In this document: positions 13,035 through 62,777 of the stretch, in pieces | Position numbering within the stretch: the stretch's first letter is position 1 | Layout: every line of letters begins with the position of its first letter | From: Acidobacteriota bacterium | Lineage (GTDB): Bacteria; Acidobacteriota; Vicinamibacteria; Vicinamibacterales; UBA2999 | NCBI GenBank assembly: GCA_963169195.1 | Contig: CAUJDN010000069.1 | Location: forward strand, 1 to 64,000 | Length of the DNA: 64,000 nucleotides | Direction of reading: 5' to 3' | Made by a program: the position numbers and the translations under genes | The notes under the pieces: generated by a model | Told to the model about the DNA's origin: nothing | The model's input: the letters and a program-made list of their open reading frames with translations, nothing else | Databases searched by the model: none

Positions 13035-13050
13035 TATGACCGCCGTCATA
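13035..13050. promoter_or_regulatory. Crp/Fnr-like operator TATGAC-CGCC-GTCATA
   Basis: A perfect copy of the palindrome. It contains the TGA stop codon of ctaA (13046-13048) and so sits at the 3' end of that gene. The only nearby start-side target is on the minus strand: TACGGT at 13013-13008 is a plausible -10 at class II spacing. Confidence 0.7.
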
Positions 13051-14125
13051 TACCCTCTCTCCTCCCGGCGGGTCGCACCCGGTGCCGAACGAGCAGCGCC
13101 AGCCCCAGCAGCACGAACGCGTTGCCCTGATGGGTCACGGCGAGCCGGGTCGGAACGACATACAGGAGAGTGCTCACGCCGAGGGCCACCTGGAGCACCA
13201 GGCCGCCGAGGAGGAGGGAGGCCGCCGCACGTGTGGCCGCCGGACGCCAGCGGCGCGTGAGTTGCCACCACAGCAGCAGGACGAGCAGGCTCAGGGCCAG
13301 CGCGAGCAGCCGGTGGCCGAACTGGACCGTCACGGGGTTCTCGAACAGGTTGGTCCAGAGCGGCCGGACGGCGAACAGTCCCTCGGGAATCCATCGGCCA
13401 CCCATCAGCGGAAAGGTGTTGAACGCAAACCCGGCACGCGTGCCGGCCACGAACGCGCCCGAGACAATGACCATCAGCACCACCACCACGACGGCGTTCG
13501 CGAGGTGCCGCATCCGATCCGAGACAGGGCGGCCCGGCGCCGGCTCGGGGCGCAACAGGTCCAGCGCGGTCCAGACCAGCCCGGCGAACACCACGGCCGC
13601 CAGCAGGAGGTGTGCGGCGAGCCGGTAGGGGCTGACCCGTGGCACGTCGACGAGCCCGCTGGCGACCATGTACCAACCGACGACGCCCTGCAGGCCGCCC
13701 AGGGCAAAGAGCCCCGCCAGCCTGGGCACGAGCGACCGCGGCACCCTGCCACGCGCCCACCAATACACCGCCGGGAGGAAGAAGACCAGCCCGACGAGGC
13801 GGCCCAGCAGGCGATGGGCCCACTCGACCCAGTAGATGCCCTTGAAGGCCTCGAGCGACATGCCACGGTTCACCTTCTGGTACTCGGGCGTCTGCCGGTA
13901 CTGCTCGAAGGCGTCCTGCCACTGCGCCCCGGTGAGAGGCGGAACCACCCCCGTCACCGGCGCCCACTCCACGATGGACAGGCCGGAATGGGTGAGCCGG
14001 GTGAAGCCTCCGACGACCACGATGAGCAGCACGAGCGCGGCACAGGTGAGCAGCCACCCGGCCATGGCCGGGTCGAAGGGCAGCGGGTCGCGCGCACGAG
14101 CGGCCCGAGGTATGACGCTGGTCAT
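13046..14125 (-). CDS. ctaA: heme A synthase (COX15/CtaA family)
   Basis: Up to 359 aa with about eight transmembrane helices. It oxidises the C8 methyl of heme O to make heme A for cytochrome oxidases of the aa3 type. COX15-type signatures are clear: GGFTRLTHSGLSIVEW, NRGMSLEAFKGIYWVEWAHR with a heme-ligand His, GWYMVASGL, FNTFPLMGGRWIPEG, and VQFGHR and VTHQGN in the second half. The ATG at 14125 lies inside an operator palindrome, so the in-frame ATG 14065 (MAGWLLTCAAL), at the first membrane helix, is a likely alternative start. The stop codon lies in a second operator copy. No oxidase structural genes are in the window. Confidence 0.93.
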   Translation of the reverse strand: MTSVIPRAARARDPLPFDPAMAGWLLTCAALVLLIVVVGGFTRLTHSGLSIVEWAPVTGVVPPLTGAQWQDAFEQYRQTPEYQKVNRGMSLEAFKGIYWVEWAHRLLGRLVGLVFFLPAVYWWARGRVPRSLVPRLAGLFALGGLQGVVGWYMVASGLVDVPRVSPYRLAAHLLLAAVVFAGLVWTALDLLRPEPAPGRPVSDRMRHLANAVVVVVLMVIVSGAFVAGTRAGFAFNTFPLMGGRWIPEGLFAVRPLWTNLFENPVTVQFGHRLLALALSLLVLLLWWQLTRRWRPAATRAAASLLLGGLVLQVALGVSTLLYVVPTRLAVTHQGNAFVLLGLALLVRHRVRPAGRREGI

Positions 14126-14126
14126 A
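14111..14126. promoter_or_regulatory. Crp/Fnr-like operator TATGAC-GCTG-GTCATA
   Basis: A perfect palindrome between divergent ctaA (minus) and a P-loop protein gene (plus). On the plus strand CAGGAT (14148-14153) is at exact class II -10 spacing (centre 32 bp away), pointing to activation of the P-loop gene with transcription from about 14160. For ctaA the site overlaps the first ATG and could block it. Confidence 0.7.
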
Positions 14127-28246: not shown

Positions 28247-31200
28247 CTACCACTTCAGATCGGGCAGCTTGCGGACCAGGACGTGCGTGTCGCGGTTGCA
28301 TCCGATCGGCCCCCAGTAGTTGAAGTGGAAGGTGAACTGGCCGTACCCGCCGACGAGCAGGTTGGGCTTCAGTCGCGTTCGCGTCAGGCTGTTGTGCCCG
28401 CCGCCGCGGCGGTAGTTGCGCAGCGGGGACTTCGGGACCGAGTAGGTCCGCTCGGGCGAGTGGTACTGGATGCAGACGCCGGGTGGGATCCGCGCGCTCA
28501 CCACCGCGCGCGTCACCACCACGCCGTGGTCGTTGTAGACCTCGACCCAGTCGTTGTCCAGGATGCCCAGCTCCGCGGCGTCGTGGTCGTTCATCCAGAA
28601 CGGCTCGAGCCCCCGCGACAGCGTCGTCATGCGCTGGTTGTCGCCGTAGGTCGAGTGGATGTGCCACTTGCCGTGCGGCGTGAGGTAGTTGAGCATCTTC
28701 GACTGGCCGACCTCCTTCTGGAAGCGGATGTCGGCGTACTGGGTCGGCAGCGGCTTGGGCTTGTAGGTCGGCACGTGCTCGCCGAACTGCAGGTAGCCCG
28801 GGTGATCCAGGTAGAAGTGCTGCCGGCCCGTCAGCGTGCGCCACGGCACCTGCGCCTCGACGTTGTAGGTGAACGGCGAGTAGGCGCGGCCGTTGGCGAT
28901 GAGGCCCGACCACATCGGGCTGTTCACGAACCGGCGCGGCTGCGACTGGATGTCCTTGTAGCTCGTCCGGAACCCGCGGTCCGCCTCCACCAGGTGCGCG
29001 AGCGGCAGGCCGACCTTCTTCTCCATGTTCTTGTAGGAGCGGTACGCCAGCTCGCCGTTGGTCACCGACGCGAACTTCAGGATCGTGTTGCAGACGTGCT
29101 CGTCCGCCGCCAGCGACGGGTAGGTCACCCCGTCCCACGCGACCGTCGGGCCGTGCGTCACCGCCTCGTCGTACACGTCGTCGATGGCGTAGTGTGTCCC
29201 GTGCGCGCCGATCCCCTTGTCCCGCGCCAGCCGCCCGAACGAGCAGTACTGGTTGTGCAGGTTCTGGTAGTCGCGCGTGACGACCTTCAGCGCCGGCATC
29301 GTCTTGCCGGGAATCGCCTCGATGTCGCCCGTGATCCAGTCCTTCATCGCCGGCTGCGCGATCTCGGCCTCGGAATCGTGGCTGAGCGGCGTCGCCACGA
29401 TGTCCCGCACCGGCGCCGGGAAGTGCCGCGGCGCCATCTCGGACAGCGTCCTGGCGATCGACTTGAAGATCTGCCAGTCGCTCTTCGACTCCCAGCACGG
29501 CGGCACCGCCGCCGAGAGCGGGTGGATGAAGCTGTGCAGGTCGGTCGAGTTGATGTCGGCCTTCTCGTAGAACGTGGCGGTCGGCAGGACGATGTCCGAG
29601 TAGAGCGCGGAGGTGTCCATCCGGAAGTTGATGTCGACGACCAGGTCCATCTTGCCCTGGGGCGCCGTCTCGTGCCACACCACTTCCTTGACCGAGTCCG
29701 CCGCCAGGTCCTGCGCCACCTTGTTCGTGTGCGTGCCCAGGTAGTGGTGCAGGAAGTACTCGTGGCCCTTCGCGCTCGACATCAGCGCGTTGCCGCGCCA
29801 GATGAACCACACCCGCGGCCAGTTCTCCGGCCCGTCCGGATCCTCCACGGAGAAGCGGAGCTGGCGCGACTTCAGCTGGTCGACCACGTAGGCGACGATC
29901 TCGGCCTCCGTGGCGGCGCCGGCGGCCTCGGCCTCCCGGACCAGATCCATCGGATTCTTGTTGAACTGCGGGTAGAACGGCATCCACCCGTTGCGGACGG
30001 CCTTGACCTGCACGTCCATGGTGTGCCCGCGGGCGATGGAGCCCTCGGGCTGGTCCGGCGGCACCGTGTGGTAGTCGGTGAACGACTTCTCGTACCGCCA
30101 CTGATCCGTGTTCACGTAGTGCCAGCTCGGCGCGTTCTGCAGGCGCGAGGCCGGGATCCAGTCCTTCCCCATCGCGATCGACGACCAGGACTCGCCGGGC
30201 GCCAGCTTCTCCTGGCCCACGTAGTGCGCCAGCCCGCCGCCGGTGACGCCCACGCACCCGCAGAACATCAGCGCGTTGATGCCGGCGCGGTACATCAGGT
30301 TGCCGTGGTACCAGTGGTTGATCCCGGCCCCGATGATGATGATGTTCTTGCCGTTGGTGTGCTCGGCCGTCGAGCCCCACTCGCGCGCGAAGCGCAGCAG
30401 CGTCTCGCGGCCCATCCCCGTGTACTTCTCCGCCCACGCGGGCGTGTACGGCTTGTCGTCGTCGTAATCGGCCGGGTAGTCGCCCGGCAGCCCACGCGCC
30501 ACCCCGTACTGGGCCATGAGGATGTCGTAGATCGTCGCGACCAGCGTCGTCGAGCCGTCGGCCAGCGTGAGCCGGCGTGCGGGCACGCCGCGCACGATCG
30601 TCGCGCCCTGGCCGAAGTCGTCGAACTGGGCCAGCGCGACCTCCTCGGCCGAGCCGAGCTGCGTCAGCGCCGGTGCGATGTCGCTGCCGTCGACCCCGTC
30701 CTTGAGCAGCAGGTTCCACTTGCCCGTGTTCTGCTTCGCCCAGCGGAAGCCGACGCTGCCCATCGGCATCTTCGGCCGCTCCGCGGCCTCGTCCCACATC
30801 AGGAACTGCCAGTCGCCGTTCTCGACGCCGGTGTACCCGGCCAGCCGGTTCGCCCGGAGGAGCTGACCCGGGCGATACTGCCCGTCCGCCTTGGGCTCGA
30901 GTTCGACGAGCAGCGGCGCATCCGTGTAGCGCTTGCAGTAGTCCACGAAGTACGGGACCTGCCGGTCGTGGTGGAACTCCTTCAGCAGCACGTGGTTGAC
31001 GGCCATCCACCAGGCGCCGTCCTGGCCGGCGTTGAGCGGCACCCACTCGTCGGCGTACTTCGCCACCTGGTTGAAGTCGGGCGCGAAGACCCACATCTTC
31101 GTGCCGTTGTGGCGCGACTCGGCCGCGAAGTGGCAGTCGGGCGTGCGGGTCATGTTGAGGTTCGACCCCATCACGGCCAGCATCTTCGCGTTGTACCAGT

Positions 31201-31891
31201 CGGCCGACTCGTGCACGTCGGTCTGCTCGCCCCAGGTCTCGGGTGAGGCCACCGGCAGGTCGCAGTACCAGTCGTAGAAGGAGAGCGACAACCCGCCGAA
31301 CAGCTGCAGGAACCGTGATCCGGCGGCGTAGCTGATCATCGACATCGCCGGGATCGGCGAGAAGCCCGCCACCCGATCCGGCCCGTGCTTCTTCGCCGTG
31401 TAGAGCAGCGAGGCGCTGATGAGCTCGAGCACCGTGCTCCAGTCCGCCCGGCGGAAGCCGCCCTTGCCACGCGCCCGCTGCCAGCGCTGGCGGGCCTCGG
31501 GGTTCTCCACGAGCGACGCCCACGCCTCCACCGGGTCGGCGTGCGCGGCGCGCGCGTCCTTCCACAGGTCGAGCAGCGGGCCCCGCGCATACGGGTACTT
31601 CACCCGCAGCGGGCTATACAGGTACCACGAGTACGAGATGCCGCGCTGACAGCCCCGCGGCTCGTAGGGCGGGAGCCCCGACTCGAGCATCGGGTAGTCG
31701 AGCGCCTGCATCTCCCACGTGACAATGCCGTTCTTGACGTAGATCTGCCAGCTGCAGCCGCCCGTGCAGTTCACGCCGTGCGTGCTGCGGACGATCTTGT
31801 CGTGCTGCCAGCGGTTACGGTAGAACTCCTCCCACTTGCGCAGCCCCGCCTTGGTCTCGTCCTTGATCCACGTGATCGTTCCGTTCTTCAT
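28247..31891 (-). CDS. narG: respiratory nitrate reductase alpha subunit (Mo-bisMGD)
   Basis: 1214 aa, about the length of E. coli NarG and collinear with it. The [4Fe-4S] FS0 ligands are His38, Cys42 and Cys46 ([11 protein letters not shown]) and Cys81 (PRGCQRG). The molybdenum ligand is Asp211 in YDWYCDLP. There is no Tat signal, so the active site faces the cytoplasm as in the classical NarGHI enzyme. It reduces nitrate to nitrite. ATG 31891 overlaps the narC stop by four bases. Regions such as [20 protein letters not shown] and [20 protein letters not shown] are almost identical in style to proteobacterial NarG. Confidence 0.98.
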
Positions 31892-32763
31892 CGGATGCCT
31901 CCGCGCGTGTGTGCGCGTCCGAAGCCCGCTTCTTCCACCAGCGGCCCGCGCACGGCACGGAACCGCTTGCGCCAGGCGCCGTCCATGCCGGCCAGCAGCA
32001 CCACCGCGCCGCCGAGCCCGAGCAGCAGGAACGTGACCCGGCCGAACCCCGAGTCCTCGCCGCCCTGCCGCGCCGCCTCTTCCAGGTAGGCCACGACCGG
32101 CAGGATCTCCTCGGCGTCGAGCGGCGTGTCACGAAACACCGACTGCATCGTCGTGGTCGCTGGCGCCGAGAGCCAGGCCGACAGGCCCTTGCGCCCCTGC
32201 AGCCGCTCGTAGACCTTCGTGAGGTCCGGGCCCAGCCGTCCACCGCCGAGCGCGCCCACGCCACGCACCGTGTGGCACGACAGGCAGGGCGGGCCGCCCG
32301 CCAGCTGCGCGATGTCGCCCCGCATGATGGCCCGGCCGCGCTCGATGTCCTGCGCCGTGAACGGCCGGTCGCTGACCTGCACGCCCACGAACTGCGATTT
32401 CTCGAGCTTCGACTCCGATTCCATGAGCGAGATCAGGGCATCGGCCATGTCCGGGGTCAGGCCCGGCAGCGACGGCATGAGGACCCCGCGGGCTTCCTGG
32501 AACAGCTGCACGGCGATCGGGTCGCCGGCGTCGATCAGGGCCTTCGGGTTGGGCATGTAGCGGAGCAGCCAGTCGTGATCGCGCCGGACCGTGACGTCCT
32601 TCAGGTCCGGCCCCGTCAGACGCCCGCCGCCAATCGTGTGGCAGCTGACGCAGTTCTGTTTGAAATATGCGGTCGCGTCCTGGGCGCGGGCGGCGCCGGG
32701 CACCGACAACGCCAGCGCCGCCGCCAAGGCCGACGCCCACCATCTTCCGAACGGCGCATTCAC
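31888..32763 (-). CDS. narC: membrane-anchored diheme cytochrome c (NarC-like)
   Basis: 291 aa from GTG 32763, preceded by GGGAGG at six bases; the open frame extends to GTG 32781. It has a signal peptide ([18 protein letters not shown]), two cytochrome c domains with CVSCH and CLSCH, methionine ligands probably in YMPNPK and SVF-region or [10 protein letters not shown], and a C-terminal membrane helix ([18 protein letters not shown]). A diheme cytochrome c as first gene of a nar operon is known as narC in Thermus, where it is required for active nitrate reductase and links it to the electron-transfer chain. The operator at 32877-32892 lies about 115 bp upstream. Confidence 0.88.
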
Positions 32764-32876
32764 GCAGAGCCTCCCTTGCACGTGGAGTTCAATCGGGGCA
32801 ACGCCGACCGTCGTCGGAGACGACCGGCCCGCGTGCCGCTGGCCAAGACTTGTCCCACAGACGCCCGCAGCGCCGG

Positions 32877-32892
32877 TATGACAGTCGTCATA
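32877..32892. promoter_or_regulatory. Crp/Fnr-like operator upstream of nar operon, TATGAC-AGTC-GTCATA
   Basis: A perfect palindrome at the head of the narC-narGHJI-narK1K2-actABCDEF transcript. It overlaps the TGA of the upstream ubiU-like gene. No exact class II -10 is found here; the best candidate AAGTCT (32851-32846) is a few bases further away than at the other sites. Confidence 0.75.
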
Positions 32893-33937
32893 TGTCGGCC
32901 TCCAGCCGCGGCGCGGTGAACGGACCGCGGTAGTAGCACATCACGCCCGACGCACAGATCTCGTGCATGCCACGGGCCCGCACCGCCCACCGCACGACGT
33001 CCTCGTCGGCACTCCCCGTCTCCATGTGTGCGAGGACCGCGCGCACGAGCTTCAGGCCCAGCAGTTTGCGGAGGGGTGAGGCCTGCCGGCCCGCGATCTT
33101 CACCGCGTGAATGCCGAAGCGCCGGAACGCCGGCATGGCGCACACGCCGCACGCGCCGAGCGGCATGCCCCCGGACGAGACCGTGGCCCCGCAGGCGTTG
33201 AGGTGCCAGATCCATTCCCGATGGCGCGCGAAGTGGGCCTCGAGCCGCGCCGCCTCGGCGGGGGCCGGTCGCTCGCCATCGGTCCGCTCGACCGTCGCGT
33301 CCCATCGCGCCAGGTCCACGCAGAACGCCCCGACACGGTGGTGGTGCAGCGTGTGGCACAGCCCCTCCTCGAAGGCGCAGCCGTCGTAGAGGACGAAGGC
33401 CTCGAGCGGTACGGCGCCGGCCACCTCGGCGCTGATGCGCCCCACCTCGTCCAGCCCGAGGCCGCGCGGCAGGATCACGCGGCCGACACCGAGGTCCTGG
33501 TAGAACCGCACGGCCTCGGTGTTGAGCGCGCTGGCGACCGAGCTGACGTGGAGTCGGGGACCGAGGCCCATGTCGGCCAGCGTCAGGAGCAGCGCCGTGT
33601 CGGACACGATCAGGCCATCGATCCCGCAGGTGGCCACCGCCTGCCGTGCCAGGTCGGCCAGGTAGGTGAGTTGCTGCTCGATGTAGACCGGCGCGTTCAG
33701 CGTGAGGAACACCGGGACGCCGTGCGCGTGGGCCCGGGCCACCAGCAGGGCGAGCGCGTCGAGGCTCGACAGATTCGCGCCAGCCGGGCTGCGGCGATTC
33801 AGCCACACCGCTCCGGAGTAGGCGCGAATCCAGTCCGGCGGGACCAGGCCGCAGTACAGCTCGCCGGCGCCGCTCTCCACCAGCATCTCGACTTCGTCCG
33901 GGCTGCTCACCGGGGCGAGGACCTTCATGGCGCTCAT
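32888..33937 (-). CDS. U32-family protein, UbiU-like
   Basis: 349 aa. It opens MKVLAPVSSPDEVEMLVESG, the U32 TIM-barrel start. Four cysteines match the iron-sulfur ligands of E. coli UbiU in order: GCAFEEGLC (two), GAFC, and the ACGVC region. AVKIAGRQASP corresponds to the conserved VKIEGRQRSP segment. UbiU and UbiV form an O2-independent hydroxylase complex in anaerobic ubiquinone synthesis. ATG 33937 overlaps the stop of the UbiV-like gene (ATGA), so the two are coupled. Acidobacteriota generally use menaquinone, so the substrate here may differ. A related U32 activity such as tRNA or rRNA hydroxylation is the alternative. Confidence 0.8.
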   Translation of the reverse strand: MSAMKVLAPVSSPDEVEMLVESGAGELYCGLVPPDWIRAYSGAVWLNRRSPAGANLSSLDALALLVARAHAHGVPVFLTLNAPVYIEQQLTYLADLARQAVATCGIDGLIVSDTALLLTLADMGLGPRLHVSSVASALNTEAVRFYQDLGVGRVILPRGLGLDEVGRISAEVAGAVPLEAFVLYDGCAFEEGLCHTLHHHRVGAFCVDLARWDATVERTDGERPAPAEAARLEAHFARHREWIWHLNACGATVSSGGMPLGACGVCAMPAFRRFGIHAVKIAGRQASPLRKLLGLKLVRAVLAHMETGSADEDVVRWAVRARGMHEICASGVMCYYRGPFTAPRLEADI

Positions 33938-34863
33938 ACCGGCAGATCGGCCTGGTAGACCAGGCGGTCGATGCCGGACCGGCTCGCGACCGCCGCGGCT
34001 CGTCCGATGGCATCCGCGTCCTGGAGATAGAAGCAGGTATTGCCGCGCTCGAGGTACTCGTGATGACCGCCGGCCACCGGCAGGGGGTCCGCGCGTCGCG
34101 TCACCGTGTACTGCAGGCATTCGCGGCGGCAGGCGGCGCCGACGTGGAACTGGTCGGCCGCAGGCTGGTTCAGCGAGCCGATGGCGCAGGCCCGCCCGCT
34201 GACCACGTAGCCGTACGGCACGTAGACCGACGCGCCGAGGCCGATTGCCCTAAAATCCGTATCGAGCCCCTGGATGAGGTTGTCGAACTCCACGCGGCCG
34301 ATGCCGAAGCGCGCGAGCAGGAGGCGCGACACGGGAGCGGTGAGCGAGGGCTGCCGCAGCGCCGCCAGGGCATCGCCGGGCGCGCGAGCCTCGACGAGCC
34401 CTGGCACAATCCGCGGATCGCGGAGCATGCGGTTCATCAGCCGCCCGAGCACGAGCCGCAGTCCGGCGTGCTCCCGGGCCACGACCCGCACGACGCCCCA
34501 ATCGTTGGCCACGACCTCGACGCGCGCATCCTCGAGCCCCGACAGCCAGGCCAGGACCGGCCGCAGGCGATCCACGCCGTCGTCGCTCACATAGCTGGTC
34601 AGCAGGGTGAAGGCGAGGCCGGCCGACACCGCGGCCGAGTAGGCGCGACGGACCTCCGACACCGACGGCGCACGCCGCTCGCAGAACTCCTGGCCGAAGT
34701 ACAGGCGTTGCCAGGCGGGCGGCCCGAACCGGTCGACCACCGCCGCACGCGCGTCGGCCTGGCGCGCGCGCGCCAGGCCGGGCCGGGAGGGCTCCAGCCG
34801 CAGGTGCGCCGGCAGGTCCGCGAGATCCGACGGCCGGAACAGCGCCAGCGCCCACTCGGTCAT
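33934..34863 (-). CDS. U32-family protein, UbiV-like
   Basis: About 309 aa. It aligns by eye with E. coli UbiV: LYFGQEFCERR matches UbiV's YLGEAVCSKRR, VEVVANDWGVVRVV matches the ASDLGVVN region, and the remaining cysteines are GRAC and AACRREC. These four cysteines correspond to the UbiV [4Fe-4S] ligands. It should form a heterodimer with the UbiU-like protein encoded next. ATG 34890 and 34878 are also in frame. The hexamer CAGCAT (34882-34877) is at exact class II distance from the operator at 34904-34919 and predicts transcription from about 34870, which favours ATG 34863. Confidence 0.75.
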   Translation of the reverse strand: MTEWALALFRPSDLADLPAHLRLEPSRPGLARARQADARAAVVDRFGPPAWQRLYFGQEFCERRAPSVSEVRRAYSAAVSAGLAFTLLTSYVSDDGVDRLRPVLAWLSGLEDARVEVVANDWGVVRVVAREHAGLRLVLGRLMNRMLRDPRIVPGLVEARAPGDALAALRQPSLTAPVSRLLLARFGIGRVEFDNLIQGLDTDFRAIGLGASVYVPYGYVVSGRACAIGSLNQPAADQFHVGAACRRECLQYTVTRRADPLPVAGGHHEYLERGNTCFYLQDADAIGRAAAVASRSGIDRLVYQADLPV

Positions 34864-34903: not shown

Positions 34904-34919
34904 TATGACGACGGTCATA
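34904..34919. promoter_or_regulatory. Crp/Fnr-like operator TATGAC-GACG-GTCATA
   Basis: A perfect palindrome between the divergent ubiV-like gene and the NarX-type sensor kinase gene. For ubiV the possible -10 CAGCAT has its centre exactly 32 bp away. Towards the kinase the match is weaker (TGACAT at 34942-34947). One site may serve both genes. Confidence 0.72.
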
Positions 34920-34986: not shown

Positions 34987-36828
34987 ATGCGCCAGGACCC
35001 TCACGCGATGCCGGCCCCGAGCGCCACCACCCCCGCGAGCTGGCTGGCCAGCGTGTTTCTCACGCTCAGGGGGCGGCTGATCCTGCTCGTCTGCTTCGCC
35101 GCGGTGCCCTCGCTGTTGTTCATCTTCTTCGCGGCCGCCCGCGAGCGGGCCTCGGCCCTGGAGTTGATGGAGACGGAGGCCCGCCATCTGGGCAGCCTGG
35201 CGTCCCGGGAACATGCCCACCAGCTCAACGGCGGTCGGAACCTGCTGCTCCGCCTCGCCCGCGTCCTGCCGTGCGAAGGGACCGACCGCGGGAAGACGCC
35301 CGTCTGTCCGGATTACCTGCCCGCTCTGCTGAGCGGCTTCCCCCAGTTCGCCAACATCGGGGTTGCCGCGACGGGCGGGGAGATTGCCTGCAGCGCCGCG
35401 CCCATCGCGCGGCCCGCGAGCCTGAGGGCGAACACCGCCTTCGACCTGGCCATCGAATCCCGGGACGTCGAGACCGGCACCTACGCCGTCGGTTTCGTCG
35501 GGCGCCCCGTCCTGCACATGGCCCGCGCCATTCGCGACGCGGATGGCACGGCCTGCGGCGTCGCCTTCGTGGCCGTCGAACTCGGCTGGCTGGACCAGCT
35601 GGCCGAGCAGGCGGACCTGCCGGCCGATTACTCGCTGTTCATCACCGACAGGGCGGGGCGCGTGCTGGCGCACTCCGGCGCCGCCCATCACGTCGTGCCG
35701 GACGGCGACGCCTCGCCGGCCCTGGCGGCGGTGCTCGACCGGCCCCGGGGGGCCGTGCTCGAGTTCGGATCGCCCCCCGCGTCGCAGTACTTCGTCGCCA
35801 CGCCGATGGAAGGCACGCCGGGCGTGTTCGTCGTCGCCGGCCTGCCCTACGAGCGGGTCCGCGGGGCCGCCAACCGGGCGTTCTATCGCACGCTGCTCGC
35901 GCTCGCGATGGTGACGATGTTCGCCATTGCCTCCGCGGTCGTGGCGGCGGAGTTCTCGGTCCTCAGGGCCCTGCGCGCGCTGACGCGGACGGTGCGCCGG
36001 TTCGGGTCGGGTGACCTCTCCGCCCGCGCGCCGCTGCCCGGCAGCCACGGCGAACTCCGCGAGCTCGCCGTCTCGTTCAGTGCCATGGCCGACGCGCTCA
36101 GCGCCCGGCAGCGCGAGGCGCGCGAGGCGCAGGAGCGGCTCCGTGCCCTGTCGCACCGGCTGCAGGAGGCGCGGGAGGAAGAGGCCGGCCGGATCGCGCG
36201 CGAACTCCACGACGAGCTGGGCCAGGTGCTGACCGGGCTGAAGATGGAGCTGGCGACCGTGTGGCGGACCGTCGCGCGCGGCGCCAGCCCGGCGGGCGGG
36301 GATCCGGTGATGGCCGGCATGGGCGAGCAGATTGACCGCGCCATCGACGCGGTGCGGCGCCTGTCGTCGGAGTTGCGGCCGCCCGTGCTCGACCGGCTGG
36401 GGCTGGGCGCGGCCGTGGACTGGCTCGTGCGGGACCGCGAGTCCAAGTCGGGCCTGGCGATCGTGCTCGACGTGCACGACCTCGGCGAGCCGATTCACCC
36501 GCAGGTGTCGATCGCGCTGTTTCGCGTCGTGCAGGAGGCCCTGACCAACGTCATCCGACACGCCAGGGCGACCGAGGTCGCCATCGACCTCGCCGGACAC
36601 GATGCCACGCTGTCGCTCACGATTCACGACAACGGCGTCGGCCTCGATCCGTCGGTGGCCAAGGGGCCCCATTCGCTCGGGATCCTGGGCATGCGCGAGC
36701 GCGTGCGCCTGGTGGGTGGCACCTTCCACATCGACGGAGGGCCCGGGCGCGGCACGACCATCGTCGTCGAGGTGCCGCGGGAGCCGCCGCGCGCGACATC
36801 GGCCGGCGGCAGCGAGCCGGAGCCATGA
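34987..36828 (+). CDS. NarX/UhpB-type (HisKA_3) sensor histidine kinase
   Basis: 613 aa. One membrane helix (~28-50), a periplasmic double-Cache-like sensor domain (~55-295), a second helix (~297-320), HAMP linker (SVLRALRALTRTVRRFGSGD), coiled-coil, and a HisKA_3 dimerisation domain with phospho-accepting His408 in RELHDELGQVLTGLK. The HATPase domain shows N-box EALTNVIRHA, DNGVGLD and GLGILGM-like HSLGILGMRERV. The sensor lacks the helical NarX P-box seen in enterobacteria, so the ligand is uncertain; its position beside nar genes suggests nitrate, nitrite or redox. It overlaps the response regulator gene by four bases. Confidence 0.93.
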   Translation: MRQDPHAMPAPSATTPASWLASVFLTLRGRLILLVCFAAVPSLLFIFFAAARERASALELMETEARHLGSLASREHAHQLNGGRNLLLRLARVLPCEGTDRGKTPVCPDYLPALLSGFPQFANIGVAATGGEIACSAAPIARPASLRANTAFDLAIESRDVETGTYAVGFVGRPVLHMARAIRDADGTACGVAFVAVELGWLDQLAEQADLPADYSLFITDRAGRVLAHSGAAHHVVPDGDASPALAAVLDRPRGAVLEFGSPPASQYFVATPMEGTPGVFVVAGLPYERVRGAANRAFYRTLLALAMVTMFAIASAVVAAEFSVLRALRALTRTVRRFGSGDLSARAPLPGSHGELRELAVSFSAMADALSARQREAREAQERLRALSHRLQEAREEEAGRIARELHDELGQVLTGLKMELATVWRTVARGASPAGGDPVMAGMGEQIDRAIDAVRRLSSELRPPVLDRLGLGAAVDWLVRDRESKSGLAIVLDVHDLGEPIHPQVSIALFRVVQEALTNVIRHARATEVAIDLAGHDATLSLTIHDNGVGLDPSVAKGPHSLGILGMRERVRLVGGTFHIDGGPGRGTTIVVEVPREPPRATSAGGSEPEP

Positions 36829-37454
36829 AGATCCTCATCGCCGACGACCACGCCATCGTGCGCTCCGGCCTGAAGCGCACCCTCGAGCTCGAGTTTCCCG
36901 ACGTCGTGTTCGGCGAGGCGACGACGGGGCGCGAGCTGCTCGAGAAGGCGCAGGCGGCCTCCTGGGATGTCGTCATCCTCGACGTCGCGCTTGGCGCCGA
37001 GAACGGTCTGGACACCCTGTCGCGGGTGAAGGCCGTGTGCCCGAGGCTTCCGGTCATCGTGCTGTCGATGTACGGCGAGCGGCAGTTCGTCCTCCGCGCC
37101 CTCGCCGACGGCGCGTCTGCCTATCTGACCAAGGAGCAGGCAGCCGAGGAGCTCTTCACGGCCATCCGCGCCGTCTGCGCCGGGCGCCGCTATCTCGGGC
37201 AGACCCTGGCCGCGCAGCTGGCGGATCACCTGGCGGGCGATCACGGGGGCAAGCCGCACGAGGCGCTGTCGAGCCGCGAGCTCGAGGTGTTCCTGCTCCT
37301 GGCCCAGGCCCGCTCGGTGTCGGAGATCGCCGAGCGGCTGCACCTGAGCGTCAAGACGGTGAGCACCTACCGGACGCGCATCCTCGAGAAGATGTCGCTG
37401 GCCTCGAACGCCGAGATCATCCAGTACGCCGTACGCCACGGCCTGGTGCGGTGA
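36825..37454 (+). CDS. NarL/FixJ-family response regulator
   Basis: 209 aa. A receiver domain starts MKILIADDHAIVRSGLKRTL, with the acidic pocket DD, phospho-acceptor Asp53 in VVILDVALG and Lys in YLTKEQ. The C-terminal LuxR-type helix-turn-helix contains SSRELEVFLLLAQARSVSEI and LHLSVKTVSTYRTRILEKM. It is the cognate partner of the preceding kinase (ATGA overlap) and would regulate genes in response to its signal. It is not a Crp/Fnr protein, so it does not by itself explain the palindromes. Confidence 0.95.
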   Translation: MKILIADDHAIVRSGLKRTLELEFPDVVFGEATTGRELLEKAQAASWDVVILDVALGAENGLDTLSRVKAVCPRLPVIVLSMYGERQFVLRALADGASAYLTKEQAAEELFTAIRAVCAGRRYLGQTLAAQLADHLAGDHGGKPHEALSSRELEVFLLLAQARSVSEIAERLHLSVKTVSTYRTRILEKMSLASNAEIIQYAVRHGLVR

Positions 37455-60772: not shown

Positions 60773-60788
60773 TATGACCCCTGTCATA
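60773..60788. promoter_or_regulatory. Crp/Fnr-like operator TATGAC-CCCT-GTCATA
   Basis: A perfect palindrome 49 bp before the ATG at 60837. A possible -10 hexamer CACGAT (60811-60816) has its centre 33 bp from the palindrome centre, one base from the class II optimum, and predicts transcription from about 60823 with the ribosome-binding site GGAGAGG right at the 5' end. Confidence 0.72.
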
Positions 60789-60836
60789 ACCTCGATGCGG
60801 CAATCCGCCACACGATCGCTTCTTGGAGAGGGGACC

Positions 60837-62777
60837 ATGGGTGTCCACGTAACCCTGCCGGATCTCGATCACTGGAAAGCGCAAGTCAAATGCCAGGTCG
60901 GGTGTCCGGTATCGACCGACGCTGGGCGTTACGTGCAACTCATCGCAGAGCGGCGACCCGAAGAGGCCTACCTTGTCGCCCGTGCACCCAATCCCCTCGC
61001 CTCCGTGTGCGGCCGCGTCTGCGCAGCTCCCTGTGAAGACGCGTGCCGCCGCGGATCCATCGACGCTCCGGTGTCCATCCGCGCCCTCAAGCGCCACGTC
61101 ACCGAGCAGTACGGCGTCGAATCCGTCCGCCCGGACACGCAGGCCCGCCTGCTCGACACGGGCATCCAGGAGGGCAATCGCTACGCCGGGCACCTGCCGA
61201 TGACGTTCCACCGGGCGCCGCCGGTGGCAACAGGTCGCGGCCCGAAACGCCGCGTGGCCGTCATCGGCGCCGGCCCTGCCGGCGTGGCCGCCGCCCACGA
61301 CCTCGCCCTGCTGAACTACGACGTCACCATCTTCGAAGCCGCCGCCGAGCCCGGCGGCATGATGCGCTTCGGCATCCCCGAATACCGCCTCCCACGCACC
61401 CTGCTCCGCGCCGAGATCGACCGCATTGTCTCGCTGGGCGTGGACCTGAAGCTGAACACCCCGCTCACACCCGAGTTCGGTCTCGGGCAGCTGCGCGCGG
61501 CCGGCTTCGACGCCGTGTTCCTGTCCGTCGGTGTGTCCCGCGGCCGCGACCTCCAGATTCCCGGCGTGGAGCTGGACGGCGTGGTGAAGGCAGTCGACTA
61601 CCTCCTGAACGTCAATCGCGGCTACCGCCTGGATCTCGGACGCCGCGTCGTCGTCATCGGCGGCGGCTTCGTCGCCTTCGACGCCGCGCGCACGGCGCTC
61701 CGGGTGGGCCGGGAGACCGAGTTGACGGCCACCGAGGCCGAGCTCGGCGCCGAAACGGACGCGCGGCTGAAGGAGGCCATGGACTCCGCGCGCGCCGCGC
61801 TGCGCGGCGGCGCCACCGAGGTGACCGTCGTGTCGCTCGAGAGCCTCGACGAGATGCCCGTGCTGCGCACGACGCAGGGCCATGAGGAGTTCGAGGAGGC
61901 CTCGAAGGAGGGCGTGCGCTTCATCACGCGCCGAGGCCCCCGCCGGCTGCTTGGCAACGGCCACCTGACCGCGCTCGAGCTGCGCGGCGTGACCAGCGTC
62001 TTCGACGCCCATGGCCGCTTCGCGCCCCAGTACAATGACGAGGACGTGGTGACGATCGAAGCCGACGCGTGCGTCCTGGCCATCGGCCAGCAGGCGGACC
62101 TGTCGTTCCTCACCCCGGCGGACGGCGTCGCGCTGACGCCGGGCGGCACGATCCGGATCGATCCGACCACGCTGGCCACCTCGGCGCCGGGCATCTACGC
62201 CGGGGGCGACGTGGCGTTCGGCCCGCGCAACCTCATCGAGGCCGTGGCCAACGGCAAGCGGGCGGCGCGGTCCATCCACGAGTACCTCGCCGGCGACCGC
62301 GCGACGCTCGAGACCGCCATCGCCATCGAGAAGCTGCCGACCTCCCACTACGAGATGCTGTCCGGCTACGAGAAGCTGGACCGCGAGGCCCCGCCGACGC
62401 TGCCGACGGACCGCCGCACGGGGATCGCCGAGGTGGAGACCGGCTACGACGCGGATGCGGCGCTGCGCCAGGCGGCGCGCTGCCTCGTCTGCCACGTGCA
62501 GACCATCTACGATCCGGAGAAGTGCGTCCTGTGCAACCGGTGCGTGGACATCTGTCCCGAGTACTGCCTGGCCATCGTCCCCTTCGAGTCGCTGGATCTC
62601 GACCCCGACCTGAGGGAGACGCTGGCCGCGCGCGCCGAGGCCAACGGCTTCCCGCTCGCGGCCATGGTGAAAGACGACGACCGGTGCATCCGGTGCGGGC
62701 TGTGCGCCATCCGCTGCCCGACCGACGCGATGACGATGGAGCGCTTCAGCATCACGGAGCGGTGGACTCATGAGTGA
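60837..62777 (+). CDS. GltD-like FAD/NAD(P)-dependent oxidoreductase with N- and C-terminal iron-sulfur domains
   Basis: 646 aa from ATG 60837 (GGAGAGGGG upstream); an in-frame ATG at 60774 lies inside the operator and is rejected. Order: N-terminal Fer4_20/DPD-type cluster (CQVGCPVSTDAGRY, CGRVCAAPCEDACRRG), FAD-binding Rossmann motif (RVAVIGAGPAGVAAAHDLAL), NAD(P)-binding motif (RVVVIGGGFVAFDAARTALR), then a two-cluster ferredoxin tail (CVLCNRCVDICP and CIRCGLCAIRCP). It overlaps the Rieske gene by eight bases. It probably oxidises NAD(P)H and delivers electrons to the Rieske/cytochrome b partners, although the reverse direction is possible. Confidence 0.88.
   Translation: MGVHVTLPDLDHWKAQVKCQVGCPVSTDAGRYVQLIAERRPEEAYLVARAPNPLASVCGRVCAAPCEDACRRGSIDAPVSIRALKRHVTEQYGVESVRPDTQARLLDTGIQEGNRYAGHLPMTFHRAPPVATGRGPKRRVAVIGAGPAGVAAAHDLALLNYDVTIFEAAAEPGGMMRFGIPEYRLPRTLLRAEIDRIVSLGVDLKLNTPLTPEFGLGQLRAAGFDAVFLSVGVSRGRDLQIPGVELDGVVKAVDYLLNVNRGYRLDLGRRVVVIGGGFVAFDAARTALRVGRETELTATEAELGAETDARLKEAMDSARAALRGGATEVTVVSLESLDEMPVLRTTQGHEEFEEASKEGVRFITRRGPRRLLGNGHLTALELRGVTSVFDAHGRFAPQYNDEDVVTIEADACVLAIGQQADLSFLTPADGVALTPGGTIRIDPTTLATSAPGIYAGGDVAFGPRNLIEAVANGKRAARSIHEYLAGDRATLETAIAIEKLPTSHYEMLSGYEKLDREAPPTLPTDRRTGIAEVETGYDADAALRQAARCLVCHVQTIYDPEKCVLCNRCVDICPEYCLAIVPFESLDLDPDLRETLAARAEANGFPLAAMVKDDDRCIRCGLCAIRCPTDAMTMERFSITERWTHE

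Follow-up and report, generated by a model that had tools for sequence, protein, structure and literature searches.

A U32 protein pair resembling UbiU and UbiV as a probable oxygen-independent counterpart of QhpG in CTQ biogenesis

Introduction

The CTQ cofactor of quinohemoprotein amine dehydrogenases (QHNDHs) is a quinone formed from the enzyme's own tryptophan. We know of no explanation for how this tryptophan gains two oxygens without O2 during CTQ maturation. Quinohemoprotein amine dehydrogenases are reportedly made by Aromatoleum aromaticum EbN1 in anaerobic growth, and to judge from the title of that study (J Bacteriol 201:e00281-19), CTQ enzymes are at work there in anaerobic amine degradation. 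The known enzyme for this step, QhpG, is an FAD monooxygenase. With O2, it introduces two hydroxyl groups into the QhpC Trp from which CTQ is formed, giving dihydroxy-Trp, and it also promotes the QhpD reaction (PMC7876137).

Proteins of the U32 type are known to hydroxylate without O2. UbiUV does so (PMC6747719, PMC10470549), as do TrhP and RlhA, which use prephenate (PMC6599085). For two products, an O2-dependent enzyme and a U32 enzyme provide separate routes: TrhO and TrhP both lead to tRNA hydroxylated at U34 (PMC6599085), and UbiIHF and UbiUV likewise share a product (PMC10470549). Under air, E. coli UbiUV is still active without O2 as the donor (PMC10470549). In a literature search covering mainly papers outside subscription, no paper was found joining U32 with tryptophylquinone, or joining peptidase U32, hydroxylation and RiPP.

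Here we analyze a pair of adjacent genes, V and U, from an Acidobacteriota genome. The pair had been read as UbiU/UbiV-like and as serving either another quinone under nitrate respiration or a different substrate altogether. From gene content and sequence comparison, we consider it likely that V-U is an O2-independent peptidyl-Trp hydroxylase for CTQ biogenesis on QhpC, the anaerobic counterpart of QhpG, co-expressed in this organism with nitrate reductase.

Results and discussion

The V-U locus

Within the window, by which we mean the whole 64,000-nucleotide stretch of DNA analyzed, V is followed by U, and the pair lies beside narCGHJI. The sequence confirms two minus-strand open reading frames (ORFs) joined by an ATGA overlap, V running from 34863 to 33934 and U from 33937 to 32888, as originally described. 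The features of the locus are as follows.

28247..31891 (-), narG, nitrate reductase alpha subunit (name from the original prediction; 92% identical to its counterpart in locus L021, where the gene order is unchanged)
31888..32781 (-), narC-like diheme cytochrome c, opening the nar operon that follows the pair (synteny kept in L021)
32877..32892, operator TATGACAGTCGTCATA, overlapping the end of U and preceding narC
32888..33937 (-), U, U32 (PF01136) protein, 349 aa (ORF, domain match, AlphaFold model)
33934..34863 (-), V, UbiV-like U32-fold protein, 309 aa (ORF, cysteine set, AlphaFold model)
34904..34919, operator TATGACGACGGTCATA, about 40 bp upstream of the V start codon
34987..36828 (+), sensor kinase (dCache, HAMP, HisKA_3), divergent
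36825..37454 (+), LuxR/NarL-type response regulator

L021, which holds the nearest kin of the window pair, also has the order V-U-narCGHJIK.

Co-occurrence with amine dehydrogenase genes

Two other Acidobacteriota genomes, G259 and G289, carry the pair inside a QHNDH cluster consisting of qhpA, qhpD (radical SAM), qhpC, qhpB, V, U and qhpE, with qhpF beside it or slightly apart. This position led us to test for co-occurrence with QhpC across 297 genomes of the phylum. A true V-U tandem is present in 7 of these, distributed over 6 genera, and QhpC (PF08992) in 21; every one of the 7 also has QhpC (hypergeometric P=3e-9, or 2e-7 by genus, with related genomes making the counts non-independent).

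The pair lies outside the qhp cluster in the window's genome and in G191, G116, G253 and G041. On another contig (C61), the window's genome has a complete qhp operon (L101) in which qhpA is preceded by a QhpG-like flavoenzyme, whose best match is QhpG at 202 bits, under the 240-bit cut-off. Products of this operon match QH_gamma (118 bits, cut-off 50), QH_alpha (435 bits, cut-off 274) and quino_hemo_SAM (566 bits, cut-off 453); its QhpE scores 143 bits against a cut-off of 165, and an ABC transporter is also encoded. The genome accordingly contains the CTQ biogenesis set of QhpC, QhpA, QhpD, QhpE and QhpF. The link between the window pair and QHNDH rests on co-occurrence, clade and regulation, not adjacency. 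In two loci of related Acidobacteriota (L014:7588-11663 and L015), V-U is flanked by an arylsulfotransferase-like beta-propeller gene on one side and a MauE/DoxX-like gene on the other; both genomes also possess a qhp operon that includes QhpG.

Replacement of QhpG

We called QhpG strong at 190 bits or more against a single model (NF049967), a threshold set for this analysis. By this measure, 15 of the 21 QhpC genomes in the phylum encode a strong QhpG near qhpC, and one has a strong QhpG on another short contig. In G259 and G289, V-U stands in place of QhpG. The qhp genomes G187, G225 and G241 have neither QhpG nor the pair and encode a possible FAD protein beside qhpE. This protein (334-342 aa; L155:5463-6476, L156:13878-14903 and L157:13727-14728, all on the minus strand) has an FAD-binding-like N terminus in all three cases, just one of which matches PF01494 (3e-6), and is perhaps a third CTQ hydroxylase.

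In a wider set of genomes (see below), strong QhpG is missing genome-wide from 20 of 22 with the pair in the qhp cluster, and a strong QhpG is present in every genome with QhpC and the pair elsewhere (Fisher p=2.7e-6; the genomes are related and not independent). L076 and L100 have both an in-cluster pair and QhpG. For the most part, then, the genomes are of two kinds: those that have the pair in the operon and lack QhpG, and those, like the window's, whose operon holds QhpG and whose pair is located elsewhere.

An oxygen-free role for the pair predicts that qhp clusters from an anaerobic phylum hold V-U and lack QhpG. In a sample of 395 Thermodesulfobacteriota, drawn on QhpC and not on the pair, V-U is found in all five newly detected clusters in which qhpA, D, C, F and E are visible, and QhpG in none of the five. 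The same sample yielded one cluster cut by a contig end and two, in one genome, with only qhpA and qhpC locally; G753 and G755 were already known through the pair. Genome G832 has two qhpA-qhpC sets (L242, L243) with no qhpD, V or U nearby. The Cys-x-Trp-Pro motif of CTQ is kept in 47 of 47 QhpC proteins, including those from genomes without QhpG, so the CTQ target remains where QhpG is gone.

These patterns also bear on the idea that the pair works in QHNDH biogenesis in some capacity other than Trp hydroxylation, for example by giving QhpD Fe-S or radical help or by hydroxylating a different residue. Both U and V probably carry Fe-S clusters, the radical SAM Fe-S enzyme QhpD belongs to the same operon, and QhpG itself promotes the QhpD reaction (PMC7876137), all of which would suit a helper. 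Against this, QhpG is the one qhp gene that the pair replaces, QhpD functions with QhpG in organisms that lack the pair, and the known U32 proteins are hydroxylation factors; we therefore regard such a role as unlikely.

Distribution and phylogeny

We searched 84,980 species genomes with an alignment of V and obtained 80 loci, selected for their similarity to V. In 22 named loci, which span at least four phyla, the pair is inside a qhp cluster. The hosts are Acidobacteriota, Bacillota (Aneurinibacillus, Neobacillus, Brevibacillus and Planococcaceae), Thermodesulfobacteriota, two 'deltaproteobacteria' and, among Pseudomonadota, Motiliproteus, Telmatospirillum, Phaeospirillum and Litorilituus. 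A frequent order is qhpA-D-C-B-V-U-F-E, and in Bacillota it is qhpC-A-D-B-V-U-F-E. Eight further pairs lie outside the cluster in genomes with QhpC elsewhere. Among 398 Pseudomonadota, a profile built from Pseudomonadota V recovered no genome beyond its own source, from which we conclude that the pair is rare there. A plasmid collection contained one distant pair, from Roseburia.

QhpC is absent from the genomes of 11 deeper-branch pairs, comprising 8 Bacillota of a Desulfosporosinus-type sister subclade (L035, L036, L040, L042, L047, L049, L060 and L072) and 3 deeper rows, and also from two incomplete MAGs and from every control genome that carries another kind of U32 pair. Gene context around the sister pairs revealed no conserved neighbour. 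The existence of this subclade without QhpC means that some V-U pairs cannot serve CTQ and that the wider family has at least one other substrate. More U32 pairs, several in U-V order, occur in Omnitrophota, Bathyarchaeota and deltaproteobacterial lineages without QhpC (L033, L041, L048, L051, L056, L061, L085, L086, L099 and others).

In the U tree, which has long branches and SH-aLRT support only, E. coli UbiU, TrhP and RlhA fall outside a fully supported branch that holds all U proteins compared. The phylogeny thus does not group U with the RNA-modifying U32 families. In the V tree, the branch of E. coli UbiV is too long for placement, and the window and L021 sequences fall within an Acidobacteriota clade of 21 rows, of which 10 come from qhp clusters. 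By these trees, U and V of the window lie inside a QHNDH-linked clade.

Whether the pair of the window's lineage might modify an unrelated substrate, its co-occurrence with QhpC reflecting shared ancestry or lifestyle, can be weighed on this basis. The pair is outside the qhp cluster in the window, G191, G116, G253 and G041, and sister pairs of the Desulfosporosinus type do without QhpC. However, co-occurrence with QhpC is complete (7/7) across 6 genera, the window rows are nested in a clade with qhp-cluster members, and the Emcibacter pair, outside the cluster, is again accompanied by QhpC in its genome. We find this explanation quite unlikely.

Relationship to UbiU and UbiV

U matches PF01136 (Peptidase U32) at 99.9 bits (cut-off 22.4) and is the one PF01136 protein in the window's genome. 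Our family-model search gave no Pfam or NCBIfam match for V, which thus falls outside PF01136 as modeled. Orthology to UbiU and UbiV, as originally assumed, did not hold up: U scores 84.9 bits against the UbiU equivalog NF047963 (cut-off 440) and lies outside UbiU in the tree, and V is without a family match. U also matches the TrhP model, at 62 bits. When U and V were compared by sequence with solved structures, only chance matches appeared. As AlphaFold models (pLDDT 87 for U and 91 for V), both proteins are predicted TIM barrels whose nearest solved fold is the U32 peptidase MK0906 (5d88), with Z 17.4 for U and, in a near tie with other TIM barrels, Z 11.7 for V.

Both proteins were said to keep all four cysteines that bind [4Fe-4S] in their E. 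coli namesakes. This is borne out for V, in which C61, C226, C245 and C249 correspond to the UbiV set C39, C180, C193 and C197 in 31 of 31 clade rows. It fails for U, which lacks the complete UbiU set (C169, C176, C193 and C232). C187 and C194 of U correspond to C169 and C176; C206 is a few columns off C193, indicating a shifted third cluster cysteine; and the alignment offers no counterpart of C232. U has additional cysteines absent from E. coli UbiU, C29, C263-x2-C266 and C328-x5-C334, which are nearly invariant (in 40 aligned relatives for C263/C266 and C328/C334), and the latter two motifs could possibly hold a second Fe-S cluster.

The overall comparison with E. coli UbiU-UbiV is therefore mixed. 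V-U resembles that system in consisting of two adjacent U32-fold genes with an anaerobic operator and a nitrate context, in the four-cysteine set of V, and in the C169/C176 pair and E-x-F...C-x6-C core of U. It differs in having the order V-U rather than U-V, in the four extra conserved cysteines of U and its missing C232 counterpart, in the distance of U from UbiU by score and tree, in the lack of UbiT and of a ubiquinone pathway, and in its linkage to qhp genes.

The prediction that the organism is a menaquinone user agrees with the genome, which fits futalosine menaquinone synthesis. Three UbiA-family genes are present, encoding an MqnP-like protein, heme O synthase and decaprenyl-phosphate phosphoribosyltransferase. 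The MqnP-like member is encoded in a futalosine menaquinone cluster that also contains mqnC, an amidohydrolase and menG/ubiE, and it reaches 132 of the 275 bits required by ubiA_proteo; by that model, none of the three is a ubiquinone-type UbiA. SCP2/UbiT is absent from the assembly, which is 97% complete, and a control search recovers the E. coli protein. A UbiUVT pathway gene set is thus not present, and we rejected a ubiquinone role for the pair.

More broadly, the pair might hydroxylate a respiratory quinone used with nitrate reductase, be it ubiquinone, methyl-plastoquinone or a hydroxylated menaquinone. The homology of the pair to UbiUV, its Fnr-like control and its nitrate setting recall the E. 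coli system, and the genome does encode a UbiE/MenG methyltransferase. The missing UbiT, the confinement of the only plausible UbiA to the menaquinone cluster and the distance of U from UbiU all argue in the other direction, and a quinone substrate would leave both the QhpC co-occurrence and the place of the pair in qhp operons unexplained, making this reading very improbable. Of the two branches left by the original prediction, it is the second, hydroxylation of something else, that gains support, from the co-occurrence with qhp genes, the place inside qhp operons and the apparent substitution for QhpG. 'UbiU/UbiV-like' genes outside Pseudomonadota should not be taken as a sign of ubiquinone. 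That U and V are RNA-modifying proteins of the TrhP/RlhA type is scarcely credible: U has in common with these the PF01136 domain and gives the TrhP model match, but TrhP and RlhA are single proteins, and the two-protein architecture, operon position and clade of V-U all differ.

A proposed reaction for V-U

We return to V-U as the proposed anaerobic counterpart of QhpG, for which we infer each catalytic step. U and V would form a complex with [4Fe-4S] clusters, as suggested by their conserved cysteines and the UbiUV precedent. QhpC crosslinked by QhpD would then dock on V-U, as QhpG leads us to expect, and the Trp indole would be hydroxylated twice with an oxygen source other than O2, possibly prephenate by analogy with TrhP and RlhA. 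Processing by QhpE and QhpF and export, known for QHNDH, would complete the cofactor. In the window's organism, QhpG of the C61 operon may serve aerobic growth, and V-U beside nar may mature QHNDH during amine oxidation with nitrate. That some hosts of the pair are aerobes is no objection, because E. coli UbiUV acts O2-independently under air.

V-U occupies the place of QhpG (NF049967) in the qhp gene set and is proposed to share its substrate, crosslinked QhpC, and its product. The two have no sequence relation: QhpG is an FAD monooxygenase using O2, whereas V-U is of the U32 type with probable Fe-S clusters and no flavin domain. The parallel with TrhO and TrhP is that an O2-dependent enzyme and a U32 enzyme carry out one hydroxylation; TrhP differs in being a single U32 protein with an RNA substrate. 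QhpG and V-U would be a third such twin set.

On the sequence evidence, V-U probably represents an unrecognized class of enzyme, a U32 [4Fe-4S] heteromer that dihydroxylates peptidyl tryptophan without O2 and makes CTQ possible in anaerobes and denitrifying cells. It is a concrete candidate for an O2-free version of the CTQ maturation step whose known enzyme, QhpG, needs O2. If this is true, U32 chemistry extends from RNA and ubiquinone to proteins, U32 proteins have been recruited at least three times (for RNA, ubiquinone and a protein cofactor) as oxygen-free twins of O2-dependent hydroxylases, and the manufacture of CTQ amine dehydrogenases without air is explained. Cultivable hosts with the pair in the qhp operon, at the place of qhpG, include Aneurinibacillus thermoaerophilus and Neobacillus mesonae.

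A Crp/Fnr-type operator ahead of the pair

The operator originally noted ahead of the pair proved to be a genuine Crp/Fnr-type site, and it supports the proposed link to anaerobic or nitrate regulation. The window holds five exact copies of TATGAC-N4-GTCATA, and six sites when up to two mismatches are allowed (0.33 expected); in the 5.01 Mb genome as a whole, the exact site occurs 9 times and the reversed control 0 times. L021 keeps the site upstream of V at -67, and L023 has it at -65 with one mismatch. Since nar is not adjacent in L023, the operator belongs to the pair and not solely to nar.

The neighbours of other operator sites fit an anaerobic or nitrogen-oxide regulon. Exact copies flank the heme A synthase gene ctaA (13046-14125, minus strand of the window) on both sides, at 13035-13050 and 14111-14126. 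At 60773-62777, a copy lies at the start of a pyridine-nucleotide/4Fe-4S oxidoreductase gene that is followed by a Rieske-like gene. Another site adjoins a second hemerythrin gene and a COX1/NnrS-like protein. An exact copy adjoins a Crp/Fnr-family regulator and a hemerythrin gene (L187:8157-9484; contig C69, about 72-73.5 kb), and this regulator is a candidate for controlling the operator set.
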